A model generated the notes under the pieces. That model had not been told where the DNA came from. It did no database searches and saw only the letters and a program-made list of their open reading frames with translations. DNA of 64,000 nucleotides from Mesorhizobium loti (GTDB taxonomy: Bacteria > Pseudomonadota > Alphaproteobacteria > Rhizobiales > Rhizobiaceae). Each line of letters opens with the position of its first letter. Position 1 is the first letter of the stretch. The translations under genes were made by a program, and so were the position numbers. Shown in pieces: positions 6,004 through 56,785 of this stretch. The DNA is taken from contig NZ_QGGH01000003.1 of NCBI RefSeq assembly GCF_003148495.1, positions 558,001 to 622,000 of the forward strand. Reading direction: 5' to 3'.

Positions 6004-6936
6004 CTATACCGCCGCCTTGCGGAAGCGAGCGACGAAGTCGTCGAGTTCTGGCCGCTCCATGTCGGAGATCGCCCAGTAGGAGAAGGCGCCGTCGCTCCAG
6101 TGCACCAGCGAAAAGCCGCCCGACGAGAGATCGGCCGGCTCAATGGTGCTGCCGCCCTGCTGCGGCTCGGCGACCAGCGTGATCAGGTGCTCGCGGTGGC
6201 GGTAGACCAGCGCAGGCACCGGCCGGTCTGATATCACCTCGACCCGACCGCCGATGAGTGTGTAGCCGTCCTGTGCGAGGTCGGGCGCTGGCGGCGACAC
6301 GCCGATCCGGGCGTCGAGCCATGGCTTGACCGTGTGGCGGTCGGACGAGACGATGTCGATCGGGCTGGCGGCAAGCAGGCTGCGGCGATGTCCGCTGGCG
6401 ACTCCAGCTGCGAAACTATCGGACGCGTTGTCGACCATCACCCATTGCGTCGCCCCGCTGGCCAGCACCGCACTGACCACGATCGACGCAGCCAGAGCGC
6501 GCCAGTCGAACGAGCCGAAGCGGCGCGCCCTTGGCAGCGCCCGCGTCTGCGACGGACGTGTCTCGGCGTTTCGTCTCTGGCCGCCCCCGACCGGTGCACC
6601 CGCGATCAGTCCCGGTTGCGGCGGCGGTGTACCCCGCAGCGGCCCGGCCGCTTCGTCCTGCGTCGGTACGTCTTGCACCGGACGTGCCGTGGCTGTCGCA
6701 CCAAGTGCGGCGATGCGCGCCCGAAAGGCGTCGCTGACATCGGGGCGCGGCAAACGGCCGAGTGCGCCCCGCAAGGCAATGATGCGGGCATGTTCGGCGG
6801 CAAGCTGCGGGTCGGCGGCGATGCGCCGCTCGACCGCGAGTGCGGCTGCCGCGTCGAGTTCGCCATCGACGAGGGCATGGATCATCAGCCTGATGCCCTC
6901 GGGATCGTTGGGCAGTCCGTCGTCATGCATGGTCAT
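6004..6936 (-). CDS. Membrane anti-sigma factor
   Basis: A 310-residue protein with an N-terminal anti-sigma segment (LMIHALVDGELDAAAALAVERRIAADP, typical of transmembrane regulators of ECF sigma factors, here without the zinc motif HxxxCxxC). A long proline/arginine-rich linker is followed by a single membrane span near residues 150-168 (LAASIVVSAVLASGATQWV) and a C-terminal periplasmic region. It should hold the cognate sigma factor at the inner membrane until a signal arrives. Its start codon overlaps the sigma stop by four bases (ATGA), the usual arrangement for an ECF/anti-sigma pair. Confidence 0.87.
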   Translation of the reverse strand: MTMHDDGLPNDPEGIRLMIHALVDGELDAAAALAVERRIAADPQLAAEHARIIALRGALGRLPRPDVSDAFRARIAALGATATARPVQDVPTQDEAAGPLRGTPPPQPGLIAGAPVGGGQRRNAETRPSQTRALPRARRFGSFDWRALAASIVVSAVLASGATQWVMVDNASDSFAAGVASGHRRSLLAASPIDIVSSDRHTVKPWLDARIGVSPPAPDLAQDGYTLIGGRVEVISDRPVPALVYRHREHLITLVAEPQQGGSTIEPADLSSGGFSLVHWSDGAFSYWAISDMERPELDDFVARFRKAAV

Positions 6937-7493
6937 GGCGCTCTCCCCAGTGCAGATACAAGCAGGCCGCGAGCCCGCGCCAGCCGTGACATCACGGTGC
7001 CCATCGGTACCCCCAGCATGGCCGCTATCTCGCGGTAGCTGAGGCCGTTGATGTCGCGCAGCACCAGCGTCTCGCGGAATGGCGGCGGCAGTGCTGCGAT
7101 TGCCGCCTCAAGGGCTGCCGTATCGGCCCTGGCGATCAGGCTCGCTTCCGGGCCATCCTCGTCGGGCAGGCTGGTGCCGTGTGCCGCCGCCATCTCGTCG
7201 AGATCGCCGAGGTCACCGACTGCGAGGATGCCGCGCGACCGGTTGCGCGACATCCAGGTGTAGGCGGTGTTGCGCACGATGGTCAGCAGCCAGGCGCGGG
7301 CATTGCCGCCGGCATAGCCTGATATGCCGGCATGCGCTTTCACGCAGGCTTCCTGCACCACATCCTCGGCGTCGGCGGCGTTGCCGGTCAACCAGCGGGC
7401 GAGCGCAAGCGCATCACCGAGATGGGGCAGCACCACCTCGCCGAAGCGCTCGGCCAAGGCCTTCTCGCTCAACACCACAGCATGATCCGGCAC
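6933..7493 (-). CDS. ECF-family RNA polymerase sigma factor
   Basis: About 186 residues from the GTG at 7493; GTG at 7478 or 7475 are alternatives, and the frame open further upstream runs into the cupredoxin gene. Region 2 is clear (DALALARWLTGNAADAEDVVQEACVKA, then ARAWLLTIVRNTAYTWMSRNR) and region 4 gives LPPPFRETLVLRDINGLSYREIAAMLG followed by GTVMSRLARARG. There is no C-terminal extension. It is the third gene of a leftward operon with the metallophosphoesterase and cupredoxin upstream and its anti-sigma factor downstream. Confidence 0.92.
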   Translation of the reverse strand: MPDHAVVLSEKALAERFGEVVLPHLGDALALARWLTGNAADAEDVVQEACVKAHAGISGYAGGNARAWLLTIVRNTAYTWMSRNRSRGILAVGDLGDLDEMAAAHGTSLPDEDGPEASLIARADTAALEAAIAALPPPFRETLVLRDINGLSYREIAAMLGVPMGTVMSRLARARGLLVSALGRAP

Positions 7494-7518
7494 TCCGGGC
7501 AGGATTTGCCGCGCCCGC

Positions 7519-7863
7519 TCAGGGAGCGACGGTGATTTTGCCCTGCATATGCGGGTGAAGCCCGCAGAAATAGGCAAAGTCGCCTGCTTTGGTGAAGGTG
7601 AATTCATAAGTGTCACCGGTGTCAAGCGCCTTGGAGCGGAAGGAGGAATCGCTGGCGACGACCAGATGCGGAATATCGTCGTCGTTTCTGAAGGTCACCG
7701 TGGTGCCGGGCTTGACCGTCAGCACCGGCGGCGTGAAGGCAAAATTCTCGATTTTGACCATCGGCGCATCGGCCGCGCGCAGCGGCTGGCAGTTCGCCGT
7801 GGTCAAGGTGAAGGCGGCGAGGATCGCGGCCATGTGCCGGGCCGGAAGGCGTATGCAAAGCAT
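7519..7863 (-). CDS. Cupredoxin (plastocyanin/azurin-like blue copper protein)
   Basis: A 114-residue protein with a signal peptide (hydrophobic run MAAILAAFTLTTANC, cleavage after LRA) and a single cupredoxin domain. The copper ligands are all present: His in DDIPHLV, then the C-terminal cluster YFCGLHPHMQG giving Cys, His and Met. It is a periplasmic electron carrier or copper-binding protein. Being sandwiched between a metallophosphoesterase and an ECF sigma factor suggests that it is part of a stress response controlled by that sigma factor. Confidence 0.92.
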   Translation of the reverse strand: MLCIRLPARHMAAILAAFTLTTANCQPLRAADAPMVKIENFAFTPPVLTVKPGTTVTFRNDDDIPHLVVASDSSFRSKALDTGDTYEFTFTKAGDFAYFCGLHPHMQGKITVAP

Positions 7864-7887: not shown

Positions 7888-8835
7888 TCAAGCCAGCGTC
7901 GAGTCGATGATGGCGAGATCCTGCCCGCCTTGCTTCACGGTGACGCTGCTGGTGCCGAGCAGGCCGCGCAGCTGTCCGGCCGGCACTGTCATCGGCCCGG
8001 GCGAGGCGGCGGTGCCTGGCGCCGGCTGCGGGAAGGCGGTCGAGCGCGCGGTGTGGAAGGTGACGTTGCCTTCCACTTTCTGCATGATCTGGTGGATGTG
8101 GCCGTTGAGCACGGTGACCGAGCCGAAGCGCTTGAGCAGGCCGAGCGCCTGTGCCGCGTCGTCGGTGCCCCAGCCCCATTCGGGATAGACGGCCCATAGT
8201 GGGATGTGAGCGAAGACGACGATCGGCGTCGAGGCGCTGACCGCTTTCAGATCATCCGCCAGCCACGCCAGCTGCTCAGGCCCGAGATTGCCGAGCCCAC
8301 CCGCCTTGAGGTTGACGACATTGACCAGCGCCACGAAATGCACGCCGTTCTGGTCGAACGAATACCAGCCGGCACCCCTGGTGCCCTTGCCGTAGCGGTC
8401 GAGATAGGCCTTGCCATTGCCGTCGTCGATCAGATCGTGCTCGCCCGGCACGTAGTGCACGTCGAAGCCGGCGCCGCCGATGATCTCAGCCGCATTGTCG
8501 AATTGTGCGGGCTTGGACAGATGGGTGATGTCGCCGGTATGGATCATGAAAGCCGGCTTTTGCGGCAGCGCCTGGATCTTGCCCATCGCTTCCTTCAGCG
8601 TGTCGATGGCATGCGGGTTGGCCGCCTTGTCGAAGCCGATGTGGCTGTCGGATATCTGCAGGAAGGTGAAGCCCGTGGCCATGGCTTCGGCAGCTTGTGC
8701 GGCGCCGAGCAGGTTGAGCGACACCGGTATGCCGCCTGAAATCGTCCACAGCACGCCGGTGCCGGCCCAGATCATGCATTCCAGCGCATGGCGGCGGCTG
8801 ATGTGCCCGTTCTCGTCGTCGTGATGATGGGTCAT
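7888..8835 (-). CDS. Calcineurin-like metallophosphoesterase, Tat-type export signal
   Basis: A 315-residue protein. A histidine-rich start (MTHHHDDENGHISRRHALE) leads to a hydrophobic stretch and AQA cleavage site; the SRRHAL pair suggests Tat export. Phosphoesterase metal ligands follow in order: DSH near 62, HTGD near 97, GEHD (variant of GNHD) near 133, FAHIP near 210, and GHIH near 247. Substrate is unknown. It is the first gene of the sigma/anti-sigma operon, and its ribosome binding site lies inside a strong inverted repeat. Confidence 0.9.
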   Translation of the reverse strand: MTHHHDDENGHISRRHALECMIWAGTGVLWTISGGIPVSLNLLGAAQAAEAMATGFTFLQISDSHIGFDKAANPHAIDTLKEAMGKIQALPQKPAFMIHTGDITHLSKPAQFDNAAEIIGGAGFDVHYVPGEHDLIDDGNGKAYLDRYGKGTRGAGWYSFDQNGVHFVALVNVVNLKAGGLGNLGPEQLAWLADDLKAVSASTPIVVFAHIPLWAVYPEWGWGTDDAAQALGLLKRFGSVTVLNGHIHQIMQKVEGNVTFHTARSTAFPQPAPGTAASPGPMTVPAGQLRGLLGTSSVTVKQGGQDLAIIDSTLA

Positions 8836-8838
8836 GTC

Positions 8839-8878
8839 GGTCTCCTCAACGCCAGGAGTGGCGTATGCTGAGGAGACC
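8839..8878 (-). promoter_or_regulatory. Stem-loop covering the ribosome binding site of the metallophosphoesterase gene
   Basis: Read on the minus strand: GGTCTCCTCA, a 4-base bulge, ACGCCA, loop CTCC, TGGCGT, TGAGGAGACC, then GAC and the ATG. The two arms pair over 16 bases without mismatch. The Shine-Dalgarno AGGAG lies within the outer stem, six bases from the ATG. If transcribed as a whole it would hide the ribosome binding site; alternatively it is a DNA operator. Confidence 0.75.
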
Positions 8879-8901
8879 CGGGACGGCGGCGGTTTATTCC
8901 C
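8878..8901 (-). promoter_or_regulatory. Candidate ECF-type promoter
   Basis: On the minus strand GGGAATAAA (8901 to 8893) is followed after 15 bases by GTCTCC. The GGAA-type -35 element with a short GTC-type -10 resembles ECF sigma promoters in general. It stands directly in front of the operon that encodes an ECF factor, so autoregulation is plausible. This is inference from one site; a start here would leave part of the stem-loop untranscribed. Confidence 0.35.
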
Positions 8902-8988
8902 GGCTGGTGCGAGTCCAGCCGTTCACGGTCGCGTGATCGCGCGTGCCGATTGCGACCGGCGCATTTCAGGCAGTGGCCTGCTGGCGTT

Positions 8989-10209
8989 TCAAACCGGCCA
9001 GCGCAAGGCGCCGGACGAATCCTTGTTAGGCATCTTCATGGCATTGGCGGGCCGCTCGGCCGCGGTCAGTATGGCGCGCAGGCGTTCGGCGACAATCTCG
9101 GCCTCGCCGGGATGAAGATTGCAGGGGTCGAGGAAGAAATGGCCGCGCTCCACTTCGTGGTTGCGTACGATGATCGGCGGCGAGCCGGCGGCCAGCGCCG
9201 AGGTGAGACCGGCCGCGGTGAACCGGCTTTCGGGGAGTACAAAAATCTGCAACCGATCGAGAGGGTTGGCGGTCGGGTCGGGAATGATCTGCGCAATGAT
9301 GCCCGGCAGCCCCTGCACCGTGTCCTTCCACAAATTGAGTGCTGCCTCTTCGCGGCGGCGGATGCCGGCATGGTCGCGTTTTTCCCAGGCTTCCAGTGCG
9401 GCCATGGTGCCGGCGATGCTTTCCTTGCCGACCTTCATGGCGCGCGCGACGCCGCGGTTCTGCAGATAGGCGGCTCGAACCAGATCCTTGCGCCCGGTGA
9501 CGATGCCGCTGGTCGGCCCACTCAGGAATTTGTGGCCGCTGTAAATGACAATGTCGGCGCCGCGCGCGAGGAAGCCGCGCAGGTCATATTCGGAAGCCGC
9601 ATCGACAATCACCGGAACGCCCCTGGCGTGGCAGATCTCGCAGAATTCCTCCAGCGACAGCATGCCATACTGCACGGTGTGGTGGGCGACGACATAGAGG
9701 CCCGCCGCCGTGCGGTCACGGATTGCGTCGCGGACGTGATAGTCCTGCGTCACGCTGACCGTGCCGGCCGGCACGACCTTGGCACCCGCCAGCCGGACCG
9801 ACTGGTCGATAGGCGCGCCGTAGTTGACGATGTGGCCGAGCTGGACGATCACCTCCGATTTTAGGCCTTCTGTGTCGTCCGGCAGGCGTTCGATGGCAAG
9901 CAGGTTGGTTCCTGTCATCGCCCCGGCGATCGCCATGGTGATGCCGCTGGCGCAGCAAGCAGTGATGAAACCGGCCTCGCCGCCGGTGAGGCGCGCGACG
10001 ATCGTGCTTGCGGCACGCTGCAGATCGTCCATCTCCACCCATTGCGAGGCCATTTCCGCCATGGCGCTGATCGCTTCCGGGACGATGATCGACGCGCCGA
10101 GCGCCGTCATCGTGCCGGAGACGTTGATGATCGGGCGAAGGCCGAGCCGTTCGCGAATCGTGGTGTTGGAGCCGTCGGCGGAATAGGTTTTCATTTCTGC
10201 GGTTCCCAT
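8989..10209 (-). CDS. SelA/DgaE-like PLP-dependent lyase
   Basis: A 406-residue fold-type I PLP enzyme of the family that holds selenocysteine synthase SelA and D-glucosaminate-6-phosphate ammonia-lyase DgaE. The N-terminus [16 protein letters not shown] is typical. [14 protein letters not shown] near 85-98 forms the phosphate-binding loop, Asp203 in [10 protein letters not shown] pairs with the pyridine nitrogen, and Lys227 in [12 protein letters not shown] is the Schiff-base lysine. No selA/selB/selC context is present, so a catabolic amino-acid or amino-sugar ammonia-lyase role is more likely. It closes a leftward operon with RidA and an amino-acid ABC importer. Confidence 0.85.
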
Positions 10210-24902: not shown

Positions 24903-24930
24903 GACCAGCTTTTCCAAAGGTTTGAATTAC

Positions 24931-24959
24931 AAAAGGACCGGCCAGTGGCCGGTCCTTTT
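24931..24959 (+). terminator. Rho-independent terminator of rpmF
   Basis: Perfect 13-base stem AAAAGGACCGGCC / GGCCGGTCCTTTT around a three-base loop, ending in a T run on the plus strand; the matching A run also makes it usable in the other direction. Confidence 0.93.
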
Positions 24960-25147
24960 GCGTTTGGGGGCCGGGTGGCGCGCATCTCGAAGCGTGGGCG
25001 GCAATCGTCGCAGCTCTCCAGCCGAGCAACCGGCTGACATGGTTGTTGCGTGCGGTCTTCGACCGTGTTCAGGGCTGCCACCGAAACATCTTGACGGCGT
25101 GCCTGTGGCGCATTCTACAAAGGATTGCCCCCACATGGAGACGCCAG

Positions 25148-32524: not shown

Positions 32525-32533
32525 CAGCGGCAT

Positions 32534-32563
32534 CGCTCGCTCGGCCTGCAGGCCGAGCGAGCG
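32534..32563 (+). terminator. Hairpin after the quinone oxidoreductase gene
   Basis: Perfect 13-base inverted repeat CGCTCGCTCGGCC / GGCCGAGCGAGCG with a TGCA loop, ten bases after the stop. No T run follows, so it is a 3'-end stabiliser or weak terminator rather than a classic one. Confidence 0.6.
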
Positions 32564-32716
32564 AGGTCCGCCTCCGCGGCTGCCTACAAGATGAACAGAA
32601 GCTTAATGCTGCAATGCAGCATTTGCATCATTGCTATGCAAAATCGGCCATTCAAGTCCTCATCGATGACGCCTATTTGAGCACCATCGAAACGAACATC
32701 ATTCTGGAGGACTACC

Positions 32717-45279: not shown

Positions 45280-45324
45280 GGCCAGCCCGGCGAAACCGCT
45301 TTTCGTGTTTTCGCCGGGCTGGCC
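45280..45324. terminator. 16-bp hairpin between gap and tkt
   Basis: GGCCAGCCCGGCGAAA (45280-45295) and TTTCGCCGGGCTGGCC (45309-45324) form a perfect 16-base stem with 13-base loop. There is no T run on the minus side, so it may be an attenuator or stabiliser between tkt and gap rather than a full terminator. Confidence 0.6.
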
Positions 45325-53372: not shown

Positions 53373-53447
53373 GCGCCCATCGTCTAGCGGTCAGGACACC
53401 GCCCTCTCACGGCGGGAACAGGGGTTCGATTCCCCTTGGGCGTACCA
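53373..53447 (+). tRNA. tRNA-Glu (anticodon CTC)
   Basis: A 75-base cloverleaf: acceptor GCGCCCA with TGGGCGT, D-arm GTCTAGCGGTCAGGAC, anticodon stem CCGCC / GGCGG with loop CTCTCAC giving anticodon CTC, T-arm AGGGGTTCGATTCCCCT, and an encoded CCA end. All four arms pair. Confidence 0.97.
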
Positions 53448-55568: not shown

Positions 55569-56423
55569 ATGGCCAAGACAGCGACGAAGAGTGCGAAGAA
55601 AACAGCCGCCAAGGCAGCCGCCAAGCCGGCGGCGAAAGCTGCGGCAAAGCCGGCAGCCGCCAAGCCCGCCGTGAAGGCGACGGCAAAAGCCGCGCCCAAG
55701 GCCAAGGCGAAGCCGGCGAAGAAACCGGCCGTGAAGCTCAGCATGCTGAAGCCCAGCGTCAACAACATGACTGTCCGGGTGTTCGCGCGCGCGGCCGGGC
55801 TGGACACCGCCGAGACCGATGCCTGGGGCCACACCCGTTCGCCGGAATTCATGGCGCGGAACCCCGCCCATTTGACGCCGATGATCGAGGACAAGGGCCT
55901 TCCCAGAGGCGTGTTGTGGGAAAGCTGCGCCATCATGCAATACCTCTCCAACAAGCACGGGCTGGAGAAATTCTATCCCAAGGCGCCGGCCAAGCGGGCG
56001 ATGATCGACAGCGCCATGTTCTACCTGGTCGGTACGCTCTACCCCTATGTGGCGCGCGCCACCTATCCGTTCCTCGGCTTTCCGCAATATGCCGGCGAGG
56101 TCGGCCACAGCGACGCCCACCCCGACAGGAAGTCCGAAGCCCAGAAGGCGGCGATGGCCGCGATCGCCGAGCCGCTGGAGGTCTTTCACTCCTTCTTCAG
56201 GGATGGCAAGCCGTTCATCGGCGGCAAGAACCCGTCCATTGCCGATATTCGCCTGGCGGCGACGCTCGAATTCCTGGCCGTCATCGACTATCCTCTGCCC
56301 AAATGGGCGAAAGACTATGTGGCAGCGGTCGAGAAGAAGCTCGGCAAGGCCTATAGCGAGCCGGCCGGCGACGTGCGCGGCTACATCGCCTATGTGAAGT
56401 CGCAGGCCAAGGCCTCAGCTTAA
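55569..56423 (+). CDS. Glutathione S-transferase-like protein with Lys/Ala-rich histone-H1-like tail
   Basis: A 284-residue protein. Residues 1-57 are a low-complexity tail of AKPAAK-type repeats (MAKTATKSAKKTAAKAAAKP and on), like the basic tails of bacterial H1-like and HU-tailed proteins. Residues 58-284 are a GST fold: SMLKPSVNNMTVRVFARAAG, RSPEFMARNPAHLTPMIEDKGLPRGVLWESCAIMQYLSNKHG (Glu-Ser glutathione pocket) and FIGGKNPSIADIRLAATLEFLAV. The ribosome site GAGGGAGGAACAAG is strong. The tail may bind DNA or RNA; no family function is known. Confidence 0.85.
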   Translation: MAKTATKSAKKTAAKAAAKPAAKAAAKPAAAKPAVKATAKAAPKAKAKPAKKPAVKLSMLKPSVNNMTVRVFARAAGLDTAETDAWGHTRSPEFMARNPAHLTPMIEDKGLPRGVLWESCAIMQYLSNKHGLEKFYPKAPAKRAMIDSAMFYLVGTLYPYVARATYPFLGFPQYAGEVGHSDAHPDRKSEAQKAAMAAIAEPLEVFHSFFRDGKPFIGGKNPSIADIRLAATLEFLAVIDYPLPKWAKDYVAAVEKKLGKAYSEPAGDVRGYIAYVKSQAKASA

Positions 56424-56785
56424 GGATTCGTTAACCAAAGCCCTGTCTACTGGAGGCAATTCGCTTTCGGCCCGCGACCACGGATGTACTGGCGCAGAAC
56501 GTCGTAGCGATAGGAAAGGTCGGCGCAATGCCGGCCTTTTTTGCTTTCGCACGCCATCTCTTTGTTGACGCAATTCCGGGACGGAAAACCGTTTCATACT
56601 TTTCCTGGAATTGCTCTATTGCCGGGGCGTGGTCGAGCAGCGATCGGGCCACGCAAGCCTCGTCTGCTGTCGCTTTTTTGGCGTCAACTTTTGCGGAGAG
56701 ATATTGTCATTGCCGGCGTTGGCCCTACCATCCATTTTGGCAGTCCGGCATGGATTGTCGGTCAGGCGCGAGATGAGGGCTGGCG
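56424..56785. other. Gene-free stretch with one terminator
   Basis: About 360 bases without a convincing gene. GGTCGGC (56518-56524) pairs with GCCGGCC (56530-56536) followed by TTTTTTG, a clear plus-strand terminator, though 95 bases beyond the GST-like stop. Open frames on both strands here overlap each other in shifted phases and show no signal peptide or family motif. Confidence 0.6.

Follow-up and report, generated by a model that had tools for sequence, protein, structure and literature searches.

A hairpin linking the -10 region of an ECF promoter to the Shine-Dalgarno sequence of its operon in Mesorhizobium loti: a possible fold-back lock on translation

The window, a stretch of 64,000 nucleotides of the Mesorhizobium loti genome, carries on its minus strand an operon that begins with a metallophosphoesterase gene and includes genes for a cupredoxin, an ECF sigma factor and an anti-sigma-like protein. 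The genes concerned are as follows.

8989-10209, minus strand: SelA-like gene, on the same strand as the operon, its end 88 bases ahead of the -35 element
7888-8835, minus strand: metallophosphoesterase (Metallophos, PF00149), the first gene of the operon, from an open reading frame and a family match
7519-7863, minus strand: cupredoxin (Cupredoxin_1), from an open reading frame and a family match
6933-7625, minus strand: open reading frame of the ECF sigma factor, from a family match; the real start is uncertain and lies within the frame
6004-6936, minus strand: anti-sigma-like protein, named from its position beside the sigma gene

The ECF sigma protein matches general ECF models only, its best NCBIfam match (PRK12533) falling below the cut-off of that model, and the anti-sigma-like protein has no Pfam or NCBIfam match. 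No publication treating an ECF sigma factor, a metallophosphoesterase and a cupredoxin together was found in the open-licence literature. Elsewhere in the window, Rfam matches are an alphaproteobacterial sRNA ar35 and a tRNA, at 56409-56545 and 53373-53444. The segment ahead of the operon contains the following elements.

8923-8936, minus strand: palindrome TCACGCGACCGTGA, a possible activator site, from the sequence and its recurrence in relatives
8894-8900, minus strand: -35 element GGAATAA of the ECF promoter, from the sequence, its conservation and mapped parallels in S. meliloti
8872-8878, minus strand: -10 region GGTCTCC (core GTCT, 8874-8877), which is also the foot of the first hairpin arm, from sequence and conservation
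8869-8878, minus strand: 5' outer arm GGTCTCCTCA, 10 bases, the complement of the Shine-Dalgarno arm, from sequence and covariation
8865-8868, minus strand: bulge GCAT, 4 bases, from the sequence
8865-8867, minus strand: predicted transcription start, 10-12 bases past the G of GTCT, by analogy with S. meliloti
8849-8864, minus strand: inner stem-loop ACGCCA-CTCC-TGGCGT, which would be the 5' end of the predicted ECF mRNA, from sequence and folding
8839-8848, minus strand: 3' outer arm TGAGGAGACC with the Shine-Dalgarno AGGAG (8842-8846), from sequence and folding

The hairpin described in an earlier, sequence-only reading of this DNA, with 10 outer and 6 inner pairs, a bulge of 4 bases and a loop of 4 bases, is present in the minus-strand sequence. 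AGGAG lies within the outer stem six bases ahead of the metallophosphoesterase ATG, as that reading also had it, TGAGGAGACC being followed by GAC and then by ATG (8833-8835). The stem is perfect and GC-rich, with a folding energy of about -27 kcal/mol. A 115-base minus-strand segment folds with z -3.37 (0 of 200 shuffles equal or better), and an 81-base plus-strand segment with z -2.16 (4 of 200). Perfect 10-base inverted repeats alone are not rare here: the window contains 37 overlapping matches, or 14 places by our own count, while 60 Markov resamples give a mean of 4.5 matches and a maximum of 14. The case for the hairpin thus depends on comparison with relatives, and conservation with altered letters is, as sequence evidence, stronger than repeat statistics. 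Longer perfect-arm inverted repeats occur at 45280-45324, 24930-24960 and 32533-32564, as runs of 7, 5 and 5 overlapping 10-base matches. An intrinsic terminator of the upstream gene was also considered and rejected; there is no terminator-like site at 8800-9100, and the stem is followed by GACATG with no T run.

A promoter does overlap the first arm, as previously proposed, with GGAATAA at 8894-8900, a 16-base spacer and GTCT at 8874-8877. It agrees with the ECF26-type pattern (-35 GGAATAA, -10 GTC, spacing of ~16 bases) in Table 1 of PMC6180224; of the six mapped S. meliloti ECF26 promoters used for comparison, three share GGAATA in the -35. In these six promoters the start lies 10, 11, 11, 11, 12 and 12 bases past the G of GTC, counted by eye on the reading that each 39-base string ends at the start, as the footnote and lower-case letters suggest. 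By this analogy we infer a start at 8867-8865 in the window, at the foot of the inner stem, so that the transcript of the ECF promoter would not include the outer arm and AGGAG would be unmasked. No upstream promoter emerged when 8800-9100 was scanned with the sigma-70 consensus. A search for a regulon with a loose promoter pattern gave 5 matches in the own genome and 6 for the reversed control, so that a regulon is not readable in this way.

Relatives of the phosphoesterase were collected from a scan of genome contigs (80 loci kept of 135 found) and from whole-genome searches, and 60 further regions were retrieved for comparison. A relative is present in 20 of 146 genomes of the genus at E 1e-40, and at E 1e-60 in 24 of 397 of the order and 9 of 385 of the class (the window's own genome counted in each), and in 87 of 295, 4 of 15, 3 of 20 and 48 of 199 genomes of four families. 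Because relatives are present in a minority of genomes, the phosphoesterase operon is accessory. The promoter analysis took in 246 of 252 loci, omitting L002, a weak paralogue, and the pattern matches L102-L106. From that analysis on a fixed rule was used and nothing was removed by hand: 40 of the 246 loci have no promoter, one has a start more than 70 bases off, and 21 GTTA loci were tested separately. In a first pass nine loci had no promoter or start, and L073 and L100 no -10; five more (L055, L071, L076, L083 and L095) were removed by hand for a doubtful start or promoter in the leader-shuffle test and in the stem-energy and covariation analysis that gave about -27 kcal/mol. The analyses of masking and partner position (95-98 loci) also needed an upstream sequence of 45-62 bases. 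Many genomes are present in duplicate, and the duplicates were taken out in the non-redundant sets; for an alignment of close relatives, 23 distinct leaders were chosen whose proteins are 79% identical or more.

The promoter is widely conserved, with 206 of the 246 loci having GGAATA and A or T, a -10 (GTC, ATC or GTTA) at a spacing of 15-16 bases, and a start codon 30-90 bases downstream; the spacing is 16 in 181 loci and 15 in 25. Among those of L022-L101 with enough sequence, 47 loci are of the GTC/ATC type: a cupredoxin comes next in 43 of them, an ECF gene follows in 41 and both do in 37, and an anti-sigma-like relative is found downstream in 40. The corresponding counts for GTTA-type loci are 15, 7, 7 and 0 of 15. 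A palindrome TCAC-N6-GTGA, possibly an activator site, is present in 49 of the 184 loci scanned for it (16 of the 114 non-redundant ones), whereas six rearranged versions used as controls turn up in 0-1 of 114. The centre of the palindrome lies 28-29 or 17-18 bases upstream of GGAATAA in 44 of the 49; relative to the predicted start these positions are about -63 and -52, separated by one helical turn.

The relation of the first arm to its leader was examined by a swap test, in which the arm (-2 to +9, numbered from the G of GTC) is exchanged for the arms of other loci and the fold energies are compared. Over 114 non-redundant loci the own arm gives -19.5 kcal/mol and swapped arms -17.3 (z -9.3), and the effect persists as closer relatives are removed, with z -8.2 for 96 loci, -4.8 for 49 that are more than 35% divergent and -3.85 for 21. 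For the same four cut-offs a spacer control, the 12 bases directly upstream, gives z -1.2, -1.5, +1.2 and -0.15. A distant 12-base control at -60 to -49 shows a weak effect (z -2.3, -2.5, -2.6 and -1.2), and among near neighbours its mean gain of -0.56 (p 0.10) equals that of the arm; part of the swap signal may therefore be shared composition. For the cupredoxin leader, taken from 89 loci of this set, there is no swap effect (z +0.18, compared with -9.3 for the phosphoesterase leader there).

Sliding 4-base blocks across the 114 loci place the strongest signal at +12 to +17, with a peak of z -13.2 at +14 to +17. From there it declines through +8 to +11 (z -8.2), +6 to +9 (-6.8), +4 to +7 (-6.3), +2 to +5 (-6.1), 0 to +3 (-3.3) and -2 to +1 (-2.6); of six blocks starting at -14 to -4, five have z -0.6 to -1.8 and one in the spacer, -8 to -5, has -3.1. 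With swaps drawn only from the 8 nearest loci, significance is kept at p 0.0002 or less by all tested blocks from +6 onwards (+6 to +9, p 1.6e-5 and 0.0002 in two analyses), and the whole arm has p 0.02. Under the same restriction +4 to +7 (p 0.056) and +2 to +5 (p 0.09) are borderline, 0 to +3 has p 0.0007 with a tiny gain of -0.16 kcal/mol, the spacer block -8 to -5 has p 0.034, and the -10 core as a whole (-2 to +5) is not significant (p 0.25). Taken as sequence comparison, these swaps demonstrate that a region from about +2 to +19 covaries with the remaining hairpin; the covariation is firm for a few bases upstream of the predicted start, while for the -10 core as a whole it is clear only between clades.

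The 23-row alignment agrees at the level of individual pairs. The structure of the window is paired in 86.1% of its cells, and 6 of the 16 pairs, three in the outer helix and three in the inner, are altered on both sides, which 24 of 500 shuffles reach. The covariation score of 0.139 is above all 500 shuffles and all slid versions, and the pairs beside the bulge and loop are weak, being unpaired in 10, 11 and 16 of the 23 rows. The compensating changes for which a comparison of the arms had been proposed are thus found, pairing being kept with changed letters both in the 114 loci and in this alignment. Leaders taken alone exceed shuffles modestly, with a mean z of -0.77 over 31 leaders, 5 of them at p<0.05 (Fisher p 2.2e-4); 13 of 49 reach p<0.05 in a looser set and 2 of 13 in a stricter one, and GTTA leaders do so in 0 of 8.

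These data weigh against several simpler accounts. That the hairpin has no function, and reflects chance complementarity and the relatedness of the genomes, would suit the frequency of perfect 10-base inverted repeats in the window and the weak effect in the distant control, but the swap tests with their spacer and cupredoxin controls, and the pair counts against slides and shuffles, leave it with very little credence. An RNA thermometer or protein-binding leader that switches a long transcript was among the earlier suggestions, and the ribosome site does lie in a stem. A thermometer would have an imperfect stem melting near growth temperature, however, while the 10+6 pair stem found here is perfect, GC-rich and stable at about -27 kcal/mol; the hairpin has no Rfam match at gathering score, and the letters of the arms differ between clades, all of which make this switch a very improbable one. 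The DNA operator that was also suggested is unlikely if its letters are to be fixed: they are largely common to the 23 closest rows, but between clades they differ with pairing kept.

Folding predicts that the two RNAs proposed for this locus would differ at the ribosome site. In the window the full hairpin forms in a long RNA with AGGAG locked, whereas RNA from 8866 retains the inner stem only and AGGAG is free. Over 95 loci the mean unpaired probability of the Shine-Dalgarno is 0.23 in the long RNA, 0.37 with a shuffled arm and 0.58 in RNA from +11, and the short RNA is more open than the long in 86 of 98 loci. In 58 of the 95 loci the arm covers half or more of the Shine-Dalgarno. Its pairing partner is mainly at -13 to -4 from the ATG and follows the start codon with a slope of 0.86 +- 0.05 (93 of 95 loci). 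The hairpin is kept with the upstream gene in either orientation (mean gain -2.65 in 36 co-directional and -2.13 in 31 divergent loci, orientation being assigned by a rough GC-frame method), so same-strand read-through is not required.

The chief alternative to a lock on longer transcripts is that selection acts on the inner stem-loop only, as a cap at the 5' end of the ECF mRNA that guards against decay or leaves the ribosome site accessible; the outer arm would be a by-product of complementary motifs. The -10 (GTCTCC) and the Shine-Dalgarno (GGAGA) are indeed complementary as motifs, and foreign arms mask nearly as well as own ones (unpaired 0.29 and 0.23). The strongest covariation, at +12 to +17, is moreover inside the predicted transcript, and the -10 core as a whole lacks covariation among near neighbours. 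Set against this, masking by own arms exceeds that by foreign arms (p 0.0008; unpaired probability lower in 62 of 98 loci) and by shuffled arms (p 1.8e-8, although shuffling also destroys the motif), the blocks +4 to +7 and +6 to +9 covary upstream of the predicted start (near-neighbour p 0.056 and 0.0002), and 0 to +3 does so slightly. We regard this alternative as rather unlikely, yet as the one to be taken most seriously.

A second alternative moves the true start a few bases upstream, to about +6, so that most of the covarying stem would be in the ECF mRNA as a modulated leader that partly masks itself. The covariation declines smoothly with no step at +10, and the Shine-Dalgarno of RNA starting at +6 is intermediate in openness (0.45, 95 loci); the six S. 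meliloti ECF26 promoters in the table cited above nevertheless start 10-12 bases past the G, and a start at +6 seems improbable. Still less probable is a structure at the DNA level, a cruciform or a non-template hairpin over the -10 that tunes promoter opening. It would account for a covarying arm that extends to the -10 region. Folds of the reverse complement have a swap effect as well (z -7.7, N=114), and counts of G.U and A.C mismatches over the 114 loci (13 and 9, with similar fractions for swapped arms) give the RNA strand no advantage. The position of the pairing partner, however, goes with the start codon and not with a fixed distance from the promoter, and sense-strand folds have a slightly greater swap gain (p 0.019, 0.077 and 0.21, significant at the loosest of three cut-offs only).

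The hairpin is not tied to this operon in all lineages. In a lineage with a GTTA -10, mostly Acidobacteria, the gene and promoter are kept and the hairpin is mostly absent: leader energies are 0 to -3.6 kcal/mol (17 loci), the arm covers the Shine-Dalgarno in 1 of 17, and there is no clear swap effect among 14 loci (z -1.1). The hairpin device is thus not needed for the operon everywhere. Within the genus of the window, L266 keeps the hairpin leader ahead of a shortened phosphoesterase-like open reading frame, and L271 has an ECF-like open reading frame directly after it, both as judged by eye.

A search of 150 genomes with the promoter pattern gave 19 sites in 15 genomes, three of which (L255, L263 and L267) are ahead of a small secreted protein; that of L267 is a Lipoprotein_15, with an ECF gene next. 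From the Lipoprotein_15 family 90 loci were retrieved and 89 aligned, of which 27 have the promoter and 62 do not. In 18 non-redundant loci own arms fold better than swapped arms (z -2.84, p 0.0026), with z -1.87 for the core alone, -2.40 for +6 to +9 and +0.58 for the spacer control, and in 14 of 18 the Shine-Dalgarno is freer in the short RNA than in the long (0.45 and 0.35). Arms from the phosphoesterase family are equally good there, own arms being better in 9 of 18 (p 0.42), and the effect is close to what the two motifs yield by themselves. The same promoter motif also precedes small secreted proteins, with leaders of 64-72 bases, at L102 (G000:C2:878243-878269), L265, L269 and L270; these proteins we take to be DUF680-like.

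The closest known systems are phage T4 gene e and I-TevI, where, in the excerpts of PMC3014915 and PMC2988022 used here, long early transcripts have their ribosome site buried in a helix, and a late promoter lies in the DNA for its 5' strand, such that late transcripts lack that strand and are translated. The likeness would be a promoter in the 5' strand of a masking hairpin, with its own transcript lacking that strand; folding of the window and the 95 loci predicts a ribosome site in a helix in long RNA, and here the start comes by analogy. In the T4 case the promoter is a phage late one and the excerpts give experiments on gene e and I-TevI, whereas the window has a chromosomal ECF promoter in an accessory operon, approached by comparison only. 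Unlike what those T4 excerpts describe, arms of the type in the window covary mainly across Alphaproteobacteria. In IS10 and IS50, outside transcripts fold over the transposase ribosome site and the element's own transcript does not. These are mobile elements in which the arm is part of the element end, while in the window it lies in the conserved -10 of a sigma-factor operon. The autoregulated ECF26 operon SMc01418-rpoE1-ecfR1 of S. meliloti has a similar promoter, GGGAATAAA-N-GTCT, before a small sigma/anti-sigma operon with a different gene content, and the parts of PMC6180224 used here describe no hairpin. As far as it was searched, the open-licence literature yielded no fold-back lock in an ECF operon.

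The earlier reading had set an RNA switch and a promoter overlapping the arm against each other as rival models. The hairpin and the overlapping promoter both stand, the promoter being conserved in 206 of 246 loci and the arm covarying with its leader. A start within the first arm, as the analogy predicts, speaks against an RNA switch in the ECF mRNA and not against a lock on longer RNAs; the sequence comparisons suggest that both models hold, with the hairpin on RNA started upstream and opened in RNA from the ECF promoter. The anatomy and the conservation of the promoter are shown, and folding predicts a ribosome site that is masked in long RNA and open in short RNA. We lean, with a little more belief than doubt, towards a fold-back translation lock that is built into the ECF promoter and acts on transcripts not begun there. 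Transcripts entering from upstream, by read-through from the SelA-like gene or from stray promoters, would contain the -10 region, which would fold back onto the Shine-Dalgarno and leave the first gene untranslated, and polarity would extend the silencing to the downstream genes. A transcript started by the ECF sigma factor would begin inside the hairpin and lack the 5' outer arm, with the inner stem-loop left and AGGAG open. The operon, presumably driven by its own sigma factor, would then be translated only when that factor calls.

A self-driving sigma factor operon is prone to accidental firing. If its promoter locks the translation of all but the correct transcripts, one short stretch of DNA does two jobs, constraints that are read as promoter conservation are in part RNA constraints, and a trick of phage T4 would extend to chromosomal stress regulation. 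That autoregulated ECF operons of Alphaproteobacteria commonly carry such a lock, with the -10 under selection for the sigma factor and also for its pairing to the Shine-Dalgarno, is a tentative extension that we would sooner doubt than accept. Were it true, positive feedback would be shielded from read-through in unrelated operon types (phosphoesterase-cupredoxin and Lipoprotein_15).
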